64,000 bases of DNA, taken from the NCBI RefSeq assembly GCF_000226565.1, contig NC_016041.1, positions 620,001 through 684,000 of the forward strand, written 5' to 3'. This stretch comes from Glaciecola nitratireducens FR1064. Its GTDB lineage: Bacteria > Pseudomonadota > Gammaproteobacteria > Enterobacterales > Alteromonadaceae. Every line of letters starts with the position of its first letter. Position 1 is the first letter of the stretch. Positions 915 through 10,595 of the stretch are shown one piece after another. The position numbers and the translations under genes were made by a program. The notes under the pieces are model-generated. The model was not told where the DNA came from, ran no database searches, and saw only the letters and a list, made by a program, of their open reading frames with translations.

Positions 915-1844
915 ATGATAGAAAAGCGCGCCACCATTCTGGTTGTTGATGATGAGCGGATCAATATTCAGATTTTAAATAACGCCCTAGGTGACCAATA
1001 CAATATCCTTGCTGCGATGACTGGTGAGCGAGCGATTAAAGTGGCTTCTGAATCACTTCCCTGTCTTATTTTGCTCGATATTGTTTTGCCAGACATAAGC
1101 GGCCACGATGTCTGCCGAGCTTTGAAAAGCAATGAGTTAACACAGCATATTCCCATTATTTTTATTACGGCACAAAGCGGAGCTGACGATGAACTCATAG
1201 GCTTAGAGTTAGGTGCCAGTGATTATTTTCGAAAGCCTTTCGTTTTACCGCTGGTTAAAGCGCGTATCCGTAATCAAATCGAATTAGTCCAAAAGACCGC
1301 TGAGCTTGAGAGGTTGGCATGGATTGATGGTTTAACCGGAGTCTCGAACAGGCGCCGATTTGACCAACTGTATTTCGATGCCTGCAAATATGCAAAACGA
1401 AACAAGCGCCGTATTTCTATCCTTCTTTTAGATATTGATTTTTTTAAACAATATAACGACCATTACGGCCATGTGAAAGGTGATGAAGTCCTTAAAAAGG
1501 TAGCACGAACAATTGAACAATGCGCATCTCGCCCTCTCGATCTAGTTGCTCGCTATGGCGGGGAAGAGTTTGTGATACTGCTGACGGATTCAAGCGAATC
1601 CGAAGGTGCTATGCTCGCCGAGAAAGTCCGTGAAAAAATAGAAGAGTTGGCAATTCCTCATATTAAATCGACTATTCACAAAGCGGTAACTATTAGCATT
1701 GGCGTAACTACAAGCTCTGATAAAGGCTCTGCATTTGATTGTAGAAAGTTGCTAGAAGTAGCCGACCGATGCTTATATGAAGCTAAGTCTATGGGGCGAA
1801 ATACAGTGGTTTCTACTGATTTTAGACCAGAAATGACTGAATAA
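915..1844 (+). CDS. REC-GGDEF response regulator (diguanylate cyclase, PleD/WspR-like)
   Basis: The 309-residue protein has an N-terminal receiver domain (about 7-125) with acidic pocket VVDDE, phospho-acceptor D55 in LLDIVLPD and the conserved lysine in RKPF. A GGDEF domain follows (about 140-300). Its active-site motif is GGEEF, and RPLD five residues upstream is an intact RxxD inhibitory site for product feedback. It should make c-di-GMP from two GTP when phosphorylated by an unidentified kinase. The ATG has an AAGGG ribosome site five bases upstream. It has the same architecture and I-site type as the cyclase at 6130-7053, so the two are probably paralogues. It appears monocistronic. Confidence 0.93.
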   Translation: MIEKRATILVVDDERINIQILNNALGDQYNILAAMTGERAIKVASESLPCLILLDIVLPDISGHDVCRALKSNELTQHIPIIFITAQSGADDELIGLELGASDYFRKPFVLPLVKARIRNQIELVQKTAELERLAWIDGLTGVSNRRRFDQLYFDACKYAKRNKRRISILLLDIDFFKQYNDHYGHVKGDEVLKKVARTIEQCASRPLDLVARYGGEEFVILLTDSSESEGAMLAEKVREKIEELAIPHIKSTIHKAVTISIGVTTSSDKGSAFDCRKLLEVADRCLYEAKSMGRNTVVSTDFRPEMTE

Positions 1845-2118: not shown

Positions 2119-4617
2119 GTGACCAGCTTACCTAAACCACTCACTTTTCTGTCATTATCTGTTCTATCCACTTTTGCTATTTCAATTCAAGCACAAACCT
2201 TATCTGGTGTTGTTCTCGACAAATCAGGGCAAGCTTTAGATGAAGGTAGAGTGCAGATTATGGGAACGAACATAAGCACGCCTATTCTCGCTGATGGTCG
2301 GTTTATTTTTGATAATGTAAAACCGGGTAATGTTGAAATTCACGTTGCGAGTTCAAAGCACATACATTCAAAAACAGAACTCACAATCCCTGAATTAGGC
2401 CTGTTTGATGTTGAAATTGTAGTTGCCAATTCGAGTATCGAAATATTTGATGTCACAGCGAGTGCTTTTCATGCTTCAACGATAGAGTCCGCAGCACCAG
2501 TAAGCGTGATCGCAGGCGATGAGCTTCGCAAAAAACAAGCGTCTACGCTTGGGGATACACTTAAAAATGAAGTCGGTGTGCATTCTACCTTTTACGGTTC
2601 GGTTGCGAGTTCGCCAATCATTAGAGGACTAGATGGCCCACGCGTATTGGTCACACAAAATGGTTTAGATTCTGGTGATGCTTCGCGTGTTAGCCCAGAT
2701 CATGTCGTTGCTACCGATACGTCAACTGCAACACAGATAGAAGTTTTAAGAGGCCCAGCAACACTATTTTATGGTAGTGGCGCGATTGGTGGGGTAGTCA
2801 ATGTTGTCGACCAGCGTATTCCCGACAATAATGATTGGGAAGGCGAAGTATCAACAGACCGCAATACCAATAACAGTGAAGAAACTTTTTCCGGTTTTAT
2901 TAAGGGTGGCAAGGACAATATCGCCTTTAATGTACAAGGTTATTATCGCGATGCAGATGACTACCGAATTCCTGGTTACGCAGAAAATGAAGAAGCTCAT
3001 TCTGAAGATGAAGGTGAGGAGGCGCACAGCGAGCATGAGGGCGAAAAAAAAGGCGTGGTAGAAAATTCCTCTAGCAGAACAAAAGGAATTACTGTTGGCG
3101 CTAGCTATTTACTCGACAACGGGCACATTGGATTTTCTGTAGAACATATGTCGAGTTTTTACGGTGTTCCTGGACATGCTCACGAGGATGAGCATAGCGA
3201 TGAGACCAATGTAGATGCAAGTGAACCCATGGACGAAGAGATCGTTCAAGGTGATCTACAGCAAAATCGCTACCAAATCTCAAGTGAGCTTCAGTTAAAT
3301 ACTGATGCAATAAGTGCAGTTAATACCAGCTTTGCCTTTACAGATTACAAGCATGCCGAAATTGAGAACGGAGAAATAGGCACTGTTTTCAAAAATAAAT
3401 CTCACGAGGCTCGCGTAGAGCTTATTCACCAGCCGATTGCAGGCTGGCGTGGTGGCTTCAGCTTCCATTACAAAGCCAGTGATTTTGAAGCCATTGGCGA
3501 CGAAGCATTTACGCCTCCTTCAAAAACTAATAGCTTTGGGATTGGCGTTATAGAGGAACAACACTTTGGTGACGTCCTGTTTCAACTGGGTGCAAGAATT
3601 GAACGCGTAGAAATTGATGTACCAGCAATTCAAATCGGCGAAACAGCCTTCTTGGCAATGCATTCAGAAGCAGAGCATTTAGAGGCAGATCATGACGCTG
3701 TTGAAGGCCATGACCTTGAAAACTCTCTTGGTGGAATTCAGTCGAGCAATGCTTCATTTACCCCGATAAGTGCTTCTATTGGTGCAGTATGGGACTTTAC
3801 TGAGGGATATAATCTAGGCTTGTCTTATGTTTACGCTCAACGAGCGCCATCTAGCTCTGAAATATACAGTTTTGGTCCGCACATAGGCACCAGTACTTAT
3901 GAGCTCGGTGCATTTTACGACATTACTGATGACGGTGACGTGATTTTCCAGGCGCAAGATTTGGCTGTAGAAAAATCGAATAACATCGACATCTCGCTCA
4001 GAAAATTTAGTGGAGAATTTGGTTTTGTATTAAATGCATTTTATAACCAAGTGAACGACTATTATTTTGCAGCAGACTCTGGCTTTGTCGTTGAAGGCGA
4101 GCATGACGAAACTGATGAGCTGGTGGACAACATGGCAGAAGAACACGGTGATGAATTACCCGTGTTTCTTTTCACCGCTGTTGATGCAGACCTTTACGGG
4201 TTTGAAGCTCAAGTTAACTGGCAAGCTACGGCATCGTTACAACTTCAAGCACAGGGTGATTTAGTGCGCACAAAGTTGAATGAAAATATGGGCGAGAGCC
4301 AATACTTACCAAGAACACCGCCGTCAAGAGTGGGCGTGAGTGCTAACTATGTTCTGGGTGATTGGCAAGCTGAACTTTCATTGCACAAGTACTTTACACA
4401 AGACAGAGTTGCTGAATTTGAAAGCGAAACCAAAGGCTACACCTTAGTGGATCTTGATATTAACTATCTTACATCTTTCAATAATACAGACCTTACGTTT
4501 TATTTGAAGGGGCGTAATTTAGGGGATGAAGAGGCACGCGTGCACACTTCCTTCTTAAAAGACCTGACGCCGGTACAAGGTCGTTCGTTTATCGTTGGTA
4601 TAAGAGCTAATTTTTAA
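2119..4617 (+). CDS. znuD: ZnuD-like TonB-dependent outer-membrane zinc receptor
   Basis: The 832-residue protein has a signal peptide (1-25, cleavage after IQA), a carboxypeptidase-regulatory-like domain (about 27-105), a TonB plug (about 115-230) and a 22-strand-type barrel ending in an aromatic residue (RANF). Four predicted loops are crowded with His, Asp and Glu: about 289-312, 351-375, 514-535 and 658-680. Such clusters are typical of zinc-capturing ZnuD receptors. The tandem Zur-type operators upstream support zinc as substrate. The start is GTG, because the upstream ATG at 2105 runs into TGA just before it; no Shine-Dalgarno sequence is visible. It would import zinc across the outer membrane using TonB energy. 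Nickel or another divalent metal is the main alternative. Confidence 0.88.
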   Translation: MTSLPKPLTFLSLSVLSTFAISIQAQTLSGVVLDKSGQALDEGRVQIMGTNISTPILADGRFIFDNVKPGNVEIHVASSKHIHSKTELTIPELGLFDVEIVVANSSIEIFDVTASAFHASTIESAAPVSVIAGDELRKKQASTLGDTLKNEVGVHSTFYGSVASSPIIRGLDGPRVLVTQNGLDSGDASRVSPDHVVATDTSTATQIEVLRGPATLFYGSGAIGGVVNVVDQRIPDNNDWEGEVSTDRNTNNSEETFSGFIKGGKDNIAFNVQGYYRDADDYRIPGYAENEEAHSEDEGEEAHSEHEGEKKGVVENSSSRTKGITVGASYLLDNGHIGFSVEHMSSFYGVPGHAHEDEHSDETNVDASEPMDEEIVQGDLQQNRYQISSELQLNTDAISAVNTSFAFTDYKHAEIENGEIGTVFKNKSHEARVELIHQPIAGWRGGFSFHYKASDFEAIGDEAFTPPSKTNSFGIGVIEEQHFGDVLFQLGARIERVEIDVPAIQIGETAFLAMHSEAEHLEADHDAVEGHDLENSLGGIQSSNASFTPISASIGAVWDFTEGYNLGLSYVYAQRAPSSSEIYSFGPHIGTSTYELGAFYDITDDGDVIFQAQDLAVEKSNNIDISLRKFSGEFGFVLNAFYNQVNDYYFAADSGFVVEGEHDETDELVDNMAEEHGDELPVFLFTAVDADLYGFEAQVNWQATASLQLQAQGDLVRTKLNENMGESQYLPRTPPSRVGVSANYVLGDWQAELSLHKYFTQDRVAEFESETKGYTLVDLDINYLTSFNNTDLTFYLKGRNLGDEEARVHTSFLKDLTPVQGRSFIVGIRANF

Positions 4618-6129: not shown

Positions 6130-7053
6130 TTAAAAAGTAACAACTCTGTAGCAGTCTTTTCCATCATGCTTGGCTTTGTATAATGCTTTATCTGCAGCAT
6201 CAATTAACATCTCAGGATCTTCTTGCATAGTAGGTTTCATAGAACTGACGCCAATACTCAACGTAACAAAATCGCACACTTTTGACTCAGAATGAGGGAA
6301 GTTTAATGCATGGATACTTTGACGCACCTTTGTTGCAATAAATTCAGCACCCGATAAATCGGTATCTGGCAGTAAAATTACAAACTCTTCTCCACCAATA
6401 CGTGCAACCATATCGATAGGGCGGTCTACAGTTTGTTTTAAGGTTTTGGCAACGGCAATGAGGCACTTATCACCTTCAGGATGCCCGTAATGGTCGTTGA
6501 AACGTTTGAACTCATCGATATCTATCATCAGGAGGGAGATTGGTTTTTTGTCTCGAACTGCAAGCTTCCAATCGGATCTCATTGCTTCGTTAAATTTCCG
6601 CCTATTGGGCACGCCAGTCAACACGTCGGTAAGGGCAAGCTCTTCTAAATTCTTTAGATCGATAGATTGACGAATGTGTGCCTTTAGTCTGGCTCTTAGA
6701 ATTTTGACATTGATAGGTTTCGTTATGTAATCAATTGCGCCCATCTCAAAGCCTTTTTCCTGATCTTCTTGATGTTTTGCGCTAGTGATAAATATGACCG
6801 GAATGTTTTGAGTTTCTTCAGATTTTTTGAGTGCTTCACAAATTTGAAAGCCATCAACCGAGGGCATTTTTACATCAAGCAATATCAAGTCCGGCTTTTG
6901 TTCTGCCATCGCTTTTTGCAGGCAGTCCTCTGCCGACAACGTAAATATGACATCGTATTGGTCCCTAATTGCTTCGGCTATAAATTTAACCGTCGTGATG
7001 TCATCATCGACAATAAGTACAACAGGTTTTCTGGTGATAGTGTCGGAACTCAT
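6130..7053 (-). CDS. REC-GGDEF response regulator (diguanylate cyclase)
   Basis: The protein has 307 residues from the ATG whose complement is at 7051-7053. The frame extends to a TTG at 7113, but the ATG has an AGGG ribosome site and begins right before the receiver domain, so it is preferred. The receiver (about 10-130) has IVDDD, phospho-acceptor D60 in LLDVKMP and lysine in TKP. The GGDEF domain has GGEEF and an RPID inhibitory site five residues before it. It should make c-di-GMP on phosphorylation. It is divergent from the hybrid kinase at 7140 with an 86-base gap, which makes that kinase a plausible partner. Confidence 0.93.
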   Translation of the reverse strand: MSSDTITRKPVVLIVDDDITTVKFIAEAIRDQYDVIFTLSAEDCLQKAMAEQKPDLILLDVKMPSVDGFQICEALKKSEETQNIPVIFITSAKHQEDQEKGFEMGAIDYITKPINVKILRARLKAHIRQSIDLKNLEELALTDVLTGVPNRRKFNEAMRSDWKLAVRDKKPISLLMIDIDEFKRFNDHYGHPEGDKCLIAVAKTLKQTVDRPIDMVARIGGEEFVILLPDTDLSGAEFIATKVRQSIHALNFPHSESKVCDFVTLSIGVSSMKPTMQEDPEMLIDAADKALYKAKHDGKDCYRVVTF

Positions 7054-7139
7054 TAATTGCCCTGTTAAAGTCTTCCTCTTGAGTTTATAGTGCGTTAAAT
7101 CAATTGTATACAAATTGTTCTATCTTCTAGGAGTTTATA

Positions 7140-10100
7140 ATGGGCGAATCGTTAGAGTCCTTATTCCGTTCTGACTACATGCCGCATGGTCACTGCTATT
7201 TGTGGAAGCCTGAGATTTTGTGGCTGAATGTTATTTCTGACGTTATGATTACCTTTGCTTACTTTTCCATTCCTATTGCTATTTATTATTTCGTGAAACA
7301 GAGAGCAGATTTACAGTTCAAAGGTATCTTCATTTTATTCTCGCTGTTTATTTTATTTTGCGGTATTACGCATGCCATTAGTATATTTGTGATTTGGCAC
7401 GGTATTTATGGGATACATGGGCTTGCGAAGTTTGCCACGGCCATCGTGTCTTGCATTACGGCGTATAAAGTTTATCAGTCAATTCCTCTAGCGCTAAAAT
7501 TGCCAACCCAAGATAGCCTGAAAGCTGCTTATGAAAAAGTGAATGAGGAAAGGATTGAACGACTCAAACTAGAGGGTAAAGCGAATGAAGAAGCAATGTT
7601 GAGGGAGTCAACAAACATTGCTCATGTCGGTGTATTTGCAATTGATGAAAATGGAAAAGTAATCATTGCCAATGATGCTGCTTGTCAGATTTTTGAAACA
7701 TCAAAGGTGGAAATTGAAAACATACCCATTCAAGAGTTGATTGAAATAAAAAAGATTTCACAAAAAAATGGAAAATCCACCTGGATTAAGCCTTCTGATT
7801 TACAAAAATTGTGGCAGTTGCAGTTTGACGACAAAATTCAAGATAAGTTTATTCATATTATTTATGCGGTAACGCAAACTGGGCATAGAGTGCCACTCAG
7901 TTTCAAGCTAACGTCGAACGAGAGCAATGACAGCATAAATACGGGAATTGCGGTTGCCTTTGCTTCATTCCAAGATATAAGTGAACAGTTGAGGTATCAA
8001 CAGGCTTTGGCTGAAAGCGAAGCGACAACCCGCAGTATTATCGAATCACTGCCTATCGGTATGCACGTATTCAAGAAGAATAAGAATAGCTTTATTCTAA
8101 GTGGTTATAACAATGCTGCTGAAAAAATACTGGCTCTTGATCATAAGCAACTGTTGCATAGGGAAATTGAGGAAGCTTTTCCCGATATTGCTGATACCGA
8201 GATGCCTAGAATTTATAAAAATATCGCACAGAAAGGGGGGCATTGGACCAATCAAGCGGTTGATTATGAACATGGCAATATTAAGGGAGTCTACGATGTT
8301 CAGTGTTTCCAAAGTGTTAAAAACACCGCTATCGTGTTGTTTGAGGATGTAACAGAACAGATTAAGGCTAAAAAAGCGATAGCTGCCAAGGAGTTATTCA
8401 TTAAAACGGCATTCAACGCCTCTATTACCGGCGTTATCGTCTACAGCTTTGAGTCGAATAAAATTGAGTTTGTTAATGAAAGCTTCACCGAGATTACCGG
8501 ATATAGCATGGATGTTGCGCTTAATATGGATGAGGCGGCTATGGCTAACTTAGTCCATCCGGATGACAAGCTCCATGCCTTAGAACACTGGCAAGCCCTG
8601 AAAAAGCTAGACACTGACGCGATGGCGCATATTAACTACCGATTAAAGCATAACAGTGGGCATTGGGTTTGGTGTTTGGCCAAAGACGTTGTGTTTGAAA
8701 AAGATGCTACTGGCAAGGTTGTTCGCTATATGAGCAGTTTCTTAGATATTTCCGAAATGAAGGCCATGCAAAACAACCTAATCAAGCTGAAGGAGTCGGC
8801 TGAATCGGCCAGCGCTGCAAAAAGTTCATTCTTGGCAAACATGAGTCATGAAATACGCACGCCTATGAATGCAATTTTAGGCTTAACTAACGTAGTCCTG
8901 CGCATGGATTTGGGTGCTAAACAGCGTGATTATCTCAGCAGAGTCGAAGCATCTTCGCAGTCCCTTCTCAGCTTGCTAAACGATATTTTAGATTATTCCA
9001 AAATTGAAGCAGGCAAATTAAGGATCAATAAAGAGGTTTTTGAACTTAACTTTGTGATCGATAACTGCACCGGCTTATTTGGCTTTTTGGCTGAGCAAAA
9101 GGGTATTGAATTTGTGGTCAGTAAAGAAAGTAGCTTGTCAAAATACTATTTAGGCGATCCGATACGCCTCAGTCAGATTATCAATAATTTATTGGGTAAC
9201 GCGGTTAAATTTACTAGTGCAGGCAAGATAGAAATGAAAGTATCTCGGGTCGTTATAGACGATGTTGAATCACTTAGTTTTAAAGTTGCCGATTCTGGTA
9301 TTGGTATGTCGCAAGCACAGGCTGAGTTAATCTTTGATGTTTTCTCGCAGGCTGATATTTCTATTAGTCGACAATATGGCGGAACGGGTCTTGGATTGGC
9401 AATTAGTCGCTCACTAACACATTTACTGGGCGGTAATTTAAGTTTTGAGACTGAGTTGGACAAGGGAAGTGTATTTGAGGTGATATTACCGTTTTCTCCC
9501 GCTGACTATGCAGACTTAAGCAATGTTGAGTCGAACACATCTACAGTTGATTTTCCAAACGATGGCAGTGCAGGGTTCGATATTGTTGAATTTGAGGACG
9601 TGAAAGCACTTGTTGTCGAAGATAATATGACAAATCAAGTGGTTGCCGTTGAGTTCTTATCCCAGTTAAATATTGAGTCAGTGTGTGTGAATAATGGTTT
9701 AGAAGCAATAAATGCGGTTGAAACGGATGTATTTGATTTTATTTTGATGGACTTACAAATGCCGGTGATGGATGGATATAGTGCAAGTAAAGTCATAAAA
9801 GCGACACCACATGGTAAAGACATTCCAATAATTGCAATGTCTGCGGCGGTCTCTGAATCTGACATTGAAAAAGTAGCGGCGTCGGGAATGGATCGTCATC
9901 TGCCTAAGCCATTTAGTTTACTCCTTCTGTTTCAAAGACTATCGGAATTTTTAAGCCACAAGAAGTCAAATGTGCGAGTGCTGCCCTCCAGCCAAAAATG
10001 GGATTTATCTAAATTTCCGAAAAATTTTAATATTGCCGATGCCATGAGAAAAGTGAGTGATGATGAGGCTCTATACTTAAAGCTTATACAGAGTTTTGCA

Positions 10101-10595
10101 GACGACTTTGACCATAGAGCTTCAAGTGTTTACGACGCTTTTGGGCAAGGTCAGTTTGCCGTTATTCAGCGCTATGCTCACACCATTAAGGGCTTAGCTG
10201 AAAGCATGGGAGCAAATGATTTGTATGAGGAAGCTAAATTTATTGAATTTGAGTATTCGCAGGATAATTTCATCGATCCAGCACAACTATTTGAAAAAGT
10301 AGATGACGCTATTGCGTCGATTCGTGCAGTGCACACCACCAAAAATCATACTATACAACCGATTGTCGGTGGTGGCAGAATATTAGCTTTAGAGTACCTA
10401 ACAACATTGCGAACAGACCTAGCCAACAGTAAGTTTGTTTCGATAGATGACATTACAAAAGAACTATCAGCTATTGCGGAATTCACCGACATTGACTTTA
10501 TTGACCGCTTTATTAGCGCACTTAAAAAGCTAGAATACAAAACATGTGTCACTATTCTCGACGAAATTGAAGACGGTATGCGTAAATCGAATTAG
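7140..10595 (+). CDS. Hybrid sensor histidine kinase with ethylene-receptor-like membrane domain
   Basis: The 1151-residue protein starts with three transmembrane segments (about 27-120) resembling the plant ETR1 ethylene-binding domain. D34, Y41, I71, C74 and H78 match ETR1 D25, Y32, I62, C65 and H69 with identical spacing. Three PAS-like domains follow (about 155-285, 295-410, 415-545). Then come HisKA with H570 (MSHEIRTPMN), an ATPase domain with DSGIGM and GGTGLGL (about 670-785), a receiver with D871 (LMDLQMP), and an Hpt domain with H1014 (AHTIKGLAES). This is a complete inner-membrane phosphorelay. AGGAG precedes the ATG. The likely output is the divergent REC-GGDEF cyclase. The ligand (ethylene, copper or redox) is inference. 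About 90 C-terminal residues are not assigned. Confidence 0.92.
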   Translation: MGESLESLFRSDYMPHGHCYLWKPEILWLNVISDVMITFAYFSIPIAIYYFVKQRADLQFKGIFILFSLFILFCGITHAISIFVIWHGIYGIHGLAKFATAIVSCITAYKVYQSIPLALKLPTQDSLKAAYEKVNEERIERLKLEGKANEEAMLRESTNIAHVGVFAIDENGKVIIANDAACQIFETSKVEIENIPIQELIEIKKISQKNGKSTWIKPSDLQKLWQLQFDDKIQDKFIHIIYAVTQTGHRVPLSFKLTSNESNDSINTGIAVAFASFQDISEQLRYQQALAESEATTRSIIESLPIGMHVFKKNKNSFILSGYNNAAEKILALDHKQLLHREIEEAFPDIADTEMPRIYKNIAQKGGHWTNQAVDYEHGNIKGVYDVQCFQSVKNTAIVLFEDVTEQIKAKKAIAAKELFIKTAFNASITGVIVYSFESNKIEFVNESFTEITGYSMDVALNMDEAAMANLVHPDDKLHALEHWQALKKLDTDAMAHINYRLKHNSGHWVWCLAKDVVFEKDATGKVVRYMSSFLDISEMKAMQNNLIKLKESAESASAAKSSFLANMSHEIRTPMNAILGLTNVVLRMDLGAKQRDYLSRVEASSQSLLSLLNDILDYSKIEAGKLRINKEVFELNFVIDNCTGLFGFLAEQKGIEFVVSKESSLSKYYLGDPIRLSQIINNLLGNAVKFTSAGKIEMKVSRVVIDDVESLSFKVADSGIGMSQAQAELIFDVFSQADISISRQYGGTGLGLAISRSLTHLLGGNLSFETELDKGSVFEVILPFSPADYADLSNVESNTSTVDFPNDGSAGFDIVEFEDVKALVVEDNMTNQVVAVEFLSQLNIESVCVNNGLEAINAVETDVFDFILMDLQMPVMDGYSASKVIKATPHGKDIPIIAMSAAVSESDIEKVAASGMDRHLPKPFSLLLLFQRLSEFLSHKKSNVRVLPSSQKWDLSKFPKNFNIADAMRKVSDDEALYLKLIQSFADDFDHRASSVYDAFGQGQFAVIQRYAHTIKGLAESMGANDLYEEAKFIEFEYSQDNFIDPAQLFEKVDDAIASIRAVHTTKNHTIQPIVGGGRILALEYLTTLRTDLANSKFVSIDDITKELSAIAEFTDIDFIDRFISALKKLEYKTCVTILDEIEDGMRKSN

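Follow-up and report, generated by a model that had tools for sequence, protein, structure and literature searches.

The locus examined here raises the question of whether a large hybrid histidine kinase of Glaciecola nitratireducens FR1064 is a bacterial ethylene receptor, and of the output to which it relays. The window, that is, the whole stretch of DNA analysed, comprises 64,000 nucleotides (positions 620,001 to 684,000 of NC_016041.1), and the kinase gene occupies 7140-10595 on its plus strand. The open reading frame starts with an ATG at 7140, just downstream of an AGGAG at 7129-7133, and encodes 1151 aa. Pfam analysis of the product revealed an ETR1_N ethylene-binding-type domain (PF25487, supported by the AlphaFold2 model; residues 26-121, 7215-7502), a PAS domain (residues 431-539, 8430-8756) preceded by a second PAS match (residues 161-203), HisKA (residues 560-625, 8817-9014), HATPase_c (residues 672-786, 9153-9497), a receiver (residues 824-933, 9609-9938) and an Hpt domain (residues 982-1063, 10083-10328), all on the plus strand. 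The residue check found the phospho-acceptor H570, the N and G boxes, D871 of the receiver and H1014 of the Hpt domain (AHTIKG) all intact, as in a hybrid phosphorelay. No GAF photosensor domain, a trait of the SynEtr1 type, was matched in the kinase by the Pfam scan at E 0.001. Elsewhere in the window, 2119-4617 encodes a TonB-dependent receptor with His-rich stretches, which is ZnuD-like but scores below the cut-off of that model (389 against 950 bits).

A preliminary description of this DNA had proposed an ethylene-receptor-like sensor domain at the N-terminus of the kinase. This proposal is well supported: the family, the residues and the predicted fold agree with it, and one relative is proven. 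The PF25487 match (E 1.5e-33), which at 115.4 bits well exceeds the cut-off of 27, rules out a chance similarity to ETR1_N. The five residues then named occupy the places claimed for them, D34 at 7239-7241, Y41 at 7260-7262, I71 at 7350-7352, C74 at 7359-7361 and H78 at 7371-7373, with spacings equal to those of Arabidopsis AtETR1. The remaining two binding residues of AtETR1 have counterparts in I44 and P45, so that, as judged from its sequence, the window protein holds all seven residues of the ethylene-binding set (D34, Y41, I44, P45, I71, C74, H78). The corresponding AtETR1 set, of the same spacing, we take to be D25, Y32, I35, P36, I62, C65 and H69, part of this numbering being presumed. 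The available text of PMC11819568 and PMC6682694 gives seven residues as required for AtETR1 binding, and that of PMC11819568 names D25, C65, H69 and K91, with a predicted pairing between K91 and D25. By spacing, K91 corresponds to K97 of the window kinase and to K98 of AzoEtr1. The candidate Cu(I) ligands, a Cys and a His, are thus present as C74 and H78. AtETR1 differs from the window kinase in its GAF domain and in its output, which is mainly via CTR1.

The AlphaFold2 model of the first 140 residues, built from an 80-row alignment, has a mean pLDDT of 94.7 and a pTM of 0.82, and contains three long helices (24-54, 61-87 and 90-119), in keeping with three predicted transmembrane segments. 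Its packing should not be trusted closely, because EPR distances of ETR1 agree better with an ab initio model than with the AlphaFold model, according to the accessible part of a review. A profile search for a solved structure of a relative of the domain found none, the best match (E 0.72) being an NADH dehydrogenase subunit, and none of 108 Foldseek matches in the PDB reached E 0.001. A cytochrome oxidase matched by phmmer (E 0.29) was dismissed as noise.

The window protein is, on this sequence evidence, a member of the known ETR1_N kinase family, which includes the ethylene binder of Azospirillum brasilense, AzoEtr1. The latter likewise combines an ETR1_N domain bearing a PHGxC motif and the seven residues with PAS and histidine kinase domains, and is 42.5% identical over the domain; locus L080 was taken as AzoEtr1 (strain Sp7) from its strain and single match, the record being unannotated. 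AzoEtr1 binds ethylene in a radioligand assay, as reported in the text available of PMC11819568. It is, however, a protein of 525 aa with no receiver or Hpt domain reported, whereas the window kinase is a hybrid with Hpt, and its partner is a single 135-aa receiver without an output domain, whereas that of the window kinase is a REC-GGDEF protein. SynEtr1 of Synechocystis is likewise a bacterial ethylene receptor with a kinase relay (accessible portions of PMC11819568 and PMC6682694), but it is also a photoreceptor and relays to slr1213, raising a small RNA and slr1214. Closer in output is GeiEtr2 of Geitlerinema, a putative ethylene receptor whose C-terminus bears a receiver and whose gene is grouped with one for a diguanylate cyclase; unlike the window kinase, it is cyanobacterial, has a GAF domain and, in the part of PMC6682694 at hand, is described with no mention of Hpt. 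The preliminary description had called such sensing little explored in heterotrophic marine bacteria, which agrees with the literature consulted, but for bacteria at large ethylene receptors of Synechocystis, Azospirillum and Geitlerinema have already been published.

The distribution of ETR1_N genes is patchy. A PF25487 match at E 0.001 was found in 17 of 98 genomes of relatives, the own genome included (16 exceeding the cut-off), in 28 of 398 genomes of the phylum-wide sample (27 exceeding it) and in 2 of 13 genomes of the host genus, one of the two being the own genome. With the centre genomes counted in, matches occur in 14 of 198, 9 of 145 and 23 of 146 genomes in the phyla of Cytophagales, Pelagicoccus and Myxococcales, respectively. 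A tblastn search with the first 140 residues matched 18 of 72,556 plasmid records, seven of them from Azospirillum, and none of 50,697 phage records; cyanobacteria are represented in this sampling by plasmids only. The own genome also encodes a second ETR1_N kinase of 898 aa (L141, 4721-7417). A receiver gene that overlaps it and then a REC-GGDEF-EAL gene come after it, and a PAS-GGDEF-EAL gene comes before it; 4721-7848 of L141 equals 3748720-3751847 of the genome. An eroded remnant of a third copy (about 26 residues; L142, 4534-4611, minus strand; 1045533-1045610 of the genome) resembles this second copy.

Conservation was counted over 126 rows, obtained from 138 matches by removal of identical cores (L003, L052 and L140 gave no match for this alignment set). 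A 90-row alignment, which combined the window sequence with 89 of 100 representatives, had excluded beforehand the eleven degenerate or incomplete domains L024, L073-L078, L098, L109, L112 and L117; its invariant columns are therefore biased, and the counts were taken from the larger set. In the latter D34 is kept in 116 rows, Y41 in 117, I44 in 113, P45 in 89, I71 in 118, C74 in 121 and H78 in 124, which places the site residues among the most conserved positions of the domain. D34 is replaced by N in four and by E in three of the 126.

The conservation of the site, which chiefly describes a Cu(I) site, is also what a sensor of Cu(I) itself, or of another small alkene or gas, would display, with ethylene binding being incidental. 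The replacement of D34 in some relatives is consistent with such a signal, as an Asp to Asn change at this position lowers the ethylene affinity of a plant receptor about 100-fold (accessible text of PMC13012798), and H16 and C19 of the PHGxC motif could add a copper capture site. On the other side, all seven residues are kept, including I44 and P45, and the relatives in Azospirillum and Synechocystis respond to ethylene, as the text available of PMC11819568 states. A signal other than ethylene is considered unlikely.

The motif PHGHCYLW (residues 15-22, 7182-7205, plus strand) was recognised by its conservation in relatives; it is juxtamembrane, precedes transmembrane helix 1 and lies outside the Pfam match, which begins at residue 26. 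It had been described as an extra N-terminal element that could add metal ligands. It is not extra, as PHGxCxxW is a sequence hallmark of the bacterial ETR1_N family, with P15 kept in 117, H16 in 116, G17 in 116, C19 in 118 and W22 in 116 of the 126 non-redundant relatives. Its possible relevance to the metal site stands: among the 109 sequences with D, Y, I, C and H intact, C19 is kept in all 109, P15 and H16 in 108, W22 in 106 and G17 in 105, though C19 is not alone in this, Y90, G75 and S104 likewise being kept in all 109. Over the 126 rows, motif and copper site are both intact in 105 and both broken in 11, while the site only is broken in 6 and the motif only in 4. This co-loss was not used as proof, because S104 and K97 are also lost along with the motif or site, which makes it not specific to copper residues, and because a tree-aware test yielded too few independent pairs (only 5, with a median p of 0.25, fell on supported branches of a weak tree of 101 columns).

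AtETR1 presumably carries two disulfide cysteines at its N-terminus and no PHGxC. C19 may be the bacterial counterpart of such plant cysteines, forming an interchain disulfide with no metal role, a reading which concerns the motif only and is compatible with the other readings of the kinase. Plant receptors are disulfide dimers via residues 4 and 6 (available text of PMC6586836), and the one cysteine at the N-terminus of cyanobacterial receptors has been suggested to form a disulfide (accessible part of PMC6682694). A disulfide alone would not demand the conservation of H16, G17 and W22, which is about that of C19, nor the retention of C19 in all 109 sequences with an intact site, although the co-loss elsewhere is not copper-specific. 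Taken by itself, this reading falls a little short of an even chance; a metal ligand and a dimer disulfide are about equally likely roles for PHGxC. The motif thus offers a second place to probe copper delivery to the receptor. A full-text literature search for PHGHC, PHGMC and PHGFC matched only restriction-modification work and nothing on receptors. Two bacterial variants (L102 and L115) have PRWxCGxW instead of PHGxCxxW, with the His lost and the Cys kept.

Divergent from the kinase gene lies a gene for a REC-GGDEF response regulator (6130-7053, minus strand), identified from the open reading frame and Pfam. The product is about 307 aa long if started at a presumed ATG at 7053, the start in the list of open reading frames being a TTG at 7113, and with the former start the intergenic stretch (7054-7139) measures 86 nt. 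It has the receiver Asp (LLDVKMP), a RIGGEEF active site and an RxxD I-site before it, features from which it is predicted to be a diguanylate cyclase. It is probably the output of the kinase. A second REC-GGDEF gene identified by Pfam (915-1844, plus strand), whose product is 41.9% identical to the first, is a possible additional target.

The pairing recurs in relatives. Of 46 gammaproteobacterial ETR1_N loci, 37 have a GGDEF gene that is either fused or no more than 2 kb away (38 of 47 before duplicate removal, as L153 repeats L022). This count omits L052 and L078 as weak matches, L003 as a fragment, and another three contigs that repeat named ones. The nine loci without it are L006, L021, L155, L157 (GGDEF gene at 2.7 kb) and L158-L162. 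The independent cases are fewer than 46 because many loci are close kin, such as two Catenovulum agarivorans strains, two Thalassotalea and four Bowmanella. Two arrangements are the commonest: a receiver-less kinase followed by a single receiver and then a REC-GGDEF or REC-GGDEF-EAL protein, and a hybrid kinase beside a REC-GGDEF protein, as in the group of the window itself. In Bowmanella a REC-GGDEF-EAL gene lies downstream of the kinase on the opposite strand. Beyond the Gammaproteobacteria, the pairing occurs in none of five named loci and one of ten plasmid loci, with flanks that are often short.

Since the own genome is rich in GGDEF domains (82 matches in 4.13 Mb), the neighbour could have arisen by chance, and a random point of this genome falls within 2.5 kb of a GGDEF domain in 9.6% of draws. 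Among its 33 other HisKA kinases, a GGDEF domain lies within 2.5 kb of HisKA in 2 and within 4 kb in 6, and by the same measure its two ETR kinases have GGDEF at 2.2 and 1.8 kb. This control, for which 35 of 36 HisKA and 77 of 82 GGDEF matches were used (a weak HisKA and five GGDEF fragments being dropped), measures the distance between domains, which is similar but not identical to the gene gap measured at the loci. Nine hybrid kinases form the sister group (SH-aLRT 92, not starred, in a tree built on few columns); eight of their loci have an adjacent REC-GGDEF gene, which is divergent in six cases and downstream in the other two. When open reading frames were compared at a coverage of at least 85%, with self and duplicate stretches set aside, the best matches of the window REC-GGDEF were the partners in L004, L007, L005, L148, L149, L024 and L145 (41-48% identity), which outrank the second window copy and all other open reading frames compared. 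The retention of a related partner in eight of nine sister loci despite a changed gene order argues against chance, and so does the existence of direct fusions; we regard a chance neighbour as highly improbable.

The fusions unite ETR1_N and GGDEF in a single protein (L031, 7522-8550; L147, 5747-6754), have all seven residues and PHGxC with H at the variable place (PHGHC), as read by eye, and gave no PAS match. As single proteins, they are candidates for placing c-di-GMP under the control of ethylene or copper. While the sensor family was already known, its recurrent pairing with GGDEF is the clearer result of this analysis. A search of the literature on ethylene receptors together with c-di-GMP, diguanylate cyclase or GGDEF disclosed no such cassette by title or abstract start among the matches listed, subscription literature being mostly outside its scope; the one earlier sighting met is the diguanylate cyclase gene near GeiEtr2 (available part of PMC6682694).

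Two of the nine sister kinases have a degenerate copper site. L024 (7986-11708) carries the changes C74F, Y41C, I71F and C19F, and L149 (6697-10434; the same gene as L077) carries C74L and I71L, yet both keep the kinase architecture and the REC-GGDEF partner (L024 by Pfam, L149 by our own profiles). The preliminary description had held that homologues functioning without the Cys and His would speak against its proposal, and such homologues partly exist, as L024 and L149 lack C74 and I71 with architecture and partner kept. The claim that ethylene is essential is therefore weakened, and the site is not needed by the relay in every species. These two kinases are natural candidates for blind variants.

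Such retention is what would be expected if ETR1_N were a membrane anchor or dimerisation unit with the PAS domains doing the sensing. Few positions of the domain are better conserved than the site residues, however, and neither ETR1_N-GGDEF fusion gave a PAS match; a mere anchor therefore appears quite unlikely. We favour, at somewhat better than an even chance, a bacterial ethylene receptor that would relay to the neighbouring REC-GGDEF protein and so to c-di-GMP. Against the receptor part of this preferred reading count the PAS domains, which may carry the real input, and the relay kept in L024 and L149/L077 without a complete site; against its GGDEF part count the 82 GGDEF matches of the own genome and L006, which has no GGDEF gene within flanks of 8.0 and 5.0 kb.

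In the proposed mechanism, the kinase would be a dimeric membrane protein, in which the N-terminal domain of three helices would bind ethylene and hold Cu(I) via C74 and H78. Binding would alter autophosphorylation at H570, and the phosphate would pass to D871, to H1014 and then to the receiver of the REC-GGDEF protein, an order suggested by the domain order and the conserved pairing. The REC-GGDEF protein would make c-di-GMP and so set biofilm or motility. PHGxC, at the outer mouth of helix 1, would probably serve in Cu(I) uptake or holding, or as a dimer tie. Ethylene probably lowers kinase output, by analogy with A. brasilense, in which ethylene lowers biofilm and c-di-GMP (the latter by metabolomics), the pathway being unknown, according to the accessible text of PMC11819568. 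Gene order and the two direct fusions thus provide a candidate route from ethylene to c-di-GMP, which the same source gives as unknown in Azospirillum, and this route is testable as a two-protein assay. Coastal and surface seawater contains ethylene, which photochemistry and algae supply (available part of PMC4036023), and a use of ethylene sensing by marine bacteria is therefore plausible.

ETR1_N also occurs as a stand-alone protein in phages. A scan of viral contigs gave six contigs with such proteins and then a seventh, and a remote ETR1_N protein is encoded in each of eight cultured-phage records, which represent six Maribacter phages, two of them entered twice. Further scans with single phage proteins returned the query and one relative, the query itself, and a copy of a Molly phage, and a scan with alignment A4 returned only contigs already known. 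All eight phage and viral proteins scored (L163-L169 and L171; the L167 piece is short at its start) exceed the Pfam ETR1_N cut-off, at 39-121 bits. By eye, the equivalents of C74, H78 and Y41 are kept in all eight and the complete set of seven in four (L163, L165, L166, L171), while in L167, L168 and L169 Asn takes the place of D34, and L169 retains PHGxC only in part.

The phage nature of the records is indicated by their other genes: Maribacter phage Colly_1 is a cultured tailed phage, genes for a terminase, a portal and a major head protein are present on the L164 contig, and the L163 contig has a phage-type DNA polymerase. The terminase family phrog_2, which also matches 11 of 14 cellular controls, was matched in four of the eight records, including the contigs of L165, L166 and L171, and was not matched in those of L163, L167 and L168 or in Colly_1. 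The TerL model PF03354 matched none of the eight, missing even Colly_1 with its annotated terminase, and was dropped as a phage marker. In four of eight, a gene for a cell-wall hydrolase occurs no further than 4 kb away: an amidase in L169 and L164, a tail-lysozyme-like reading frame in L167 and an endolysin-like one in L168. No such gene was recognised in L163, L166 and L171, of whose neighbours a few were scanned.

The spot directly before an amidase gene is the usual place of a holin. It is there that Colly_1 encodes its ETR1_N protein, Colly1_63 (L169, 7962-8831), which like the others of the Maribacter phages is annotated as hypothetical. The word ethylene does not appear in the main text of the isolation paper of these phages (PMC8776804), and a literature search on ethylene receptors with phage and lysis gave nothing on phage ETR1_N proteins by title among the matches listed. 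ETR1_N might be a portable Cu(I)/ethylene membrane module beyond kinases, serving c-di-GMP by relay or fusion in marine gammaproteobacteria and, in phages, where in some cases it lies near hydrolase or tail genes, acting as a holin-like or lysis-timing reader of host copper or ethylene; this wider proposal is speculative, and we give it a rather low probability. The L164 protein has a faint match to a holin family, below the cut-off (18.1 of 32 bits). Foldseek against viral models gave one of 272 matches at E 0.001 or better, a protein of 289 residues which, from its equal length, appears to be Colly1_63.
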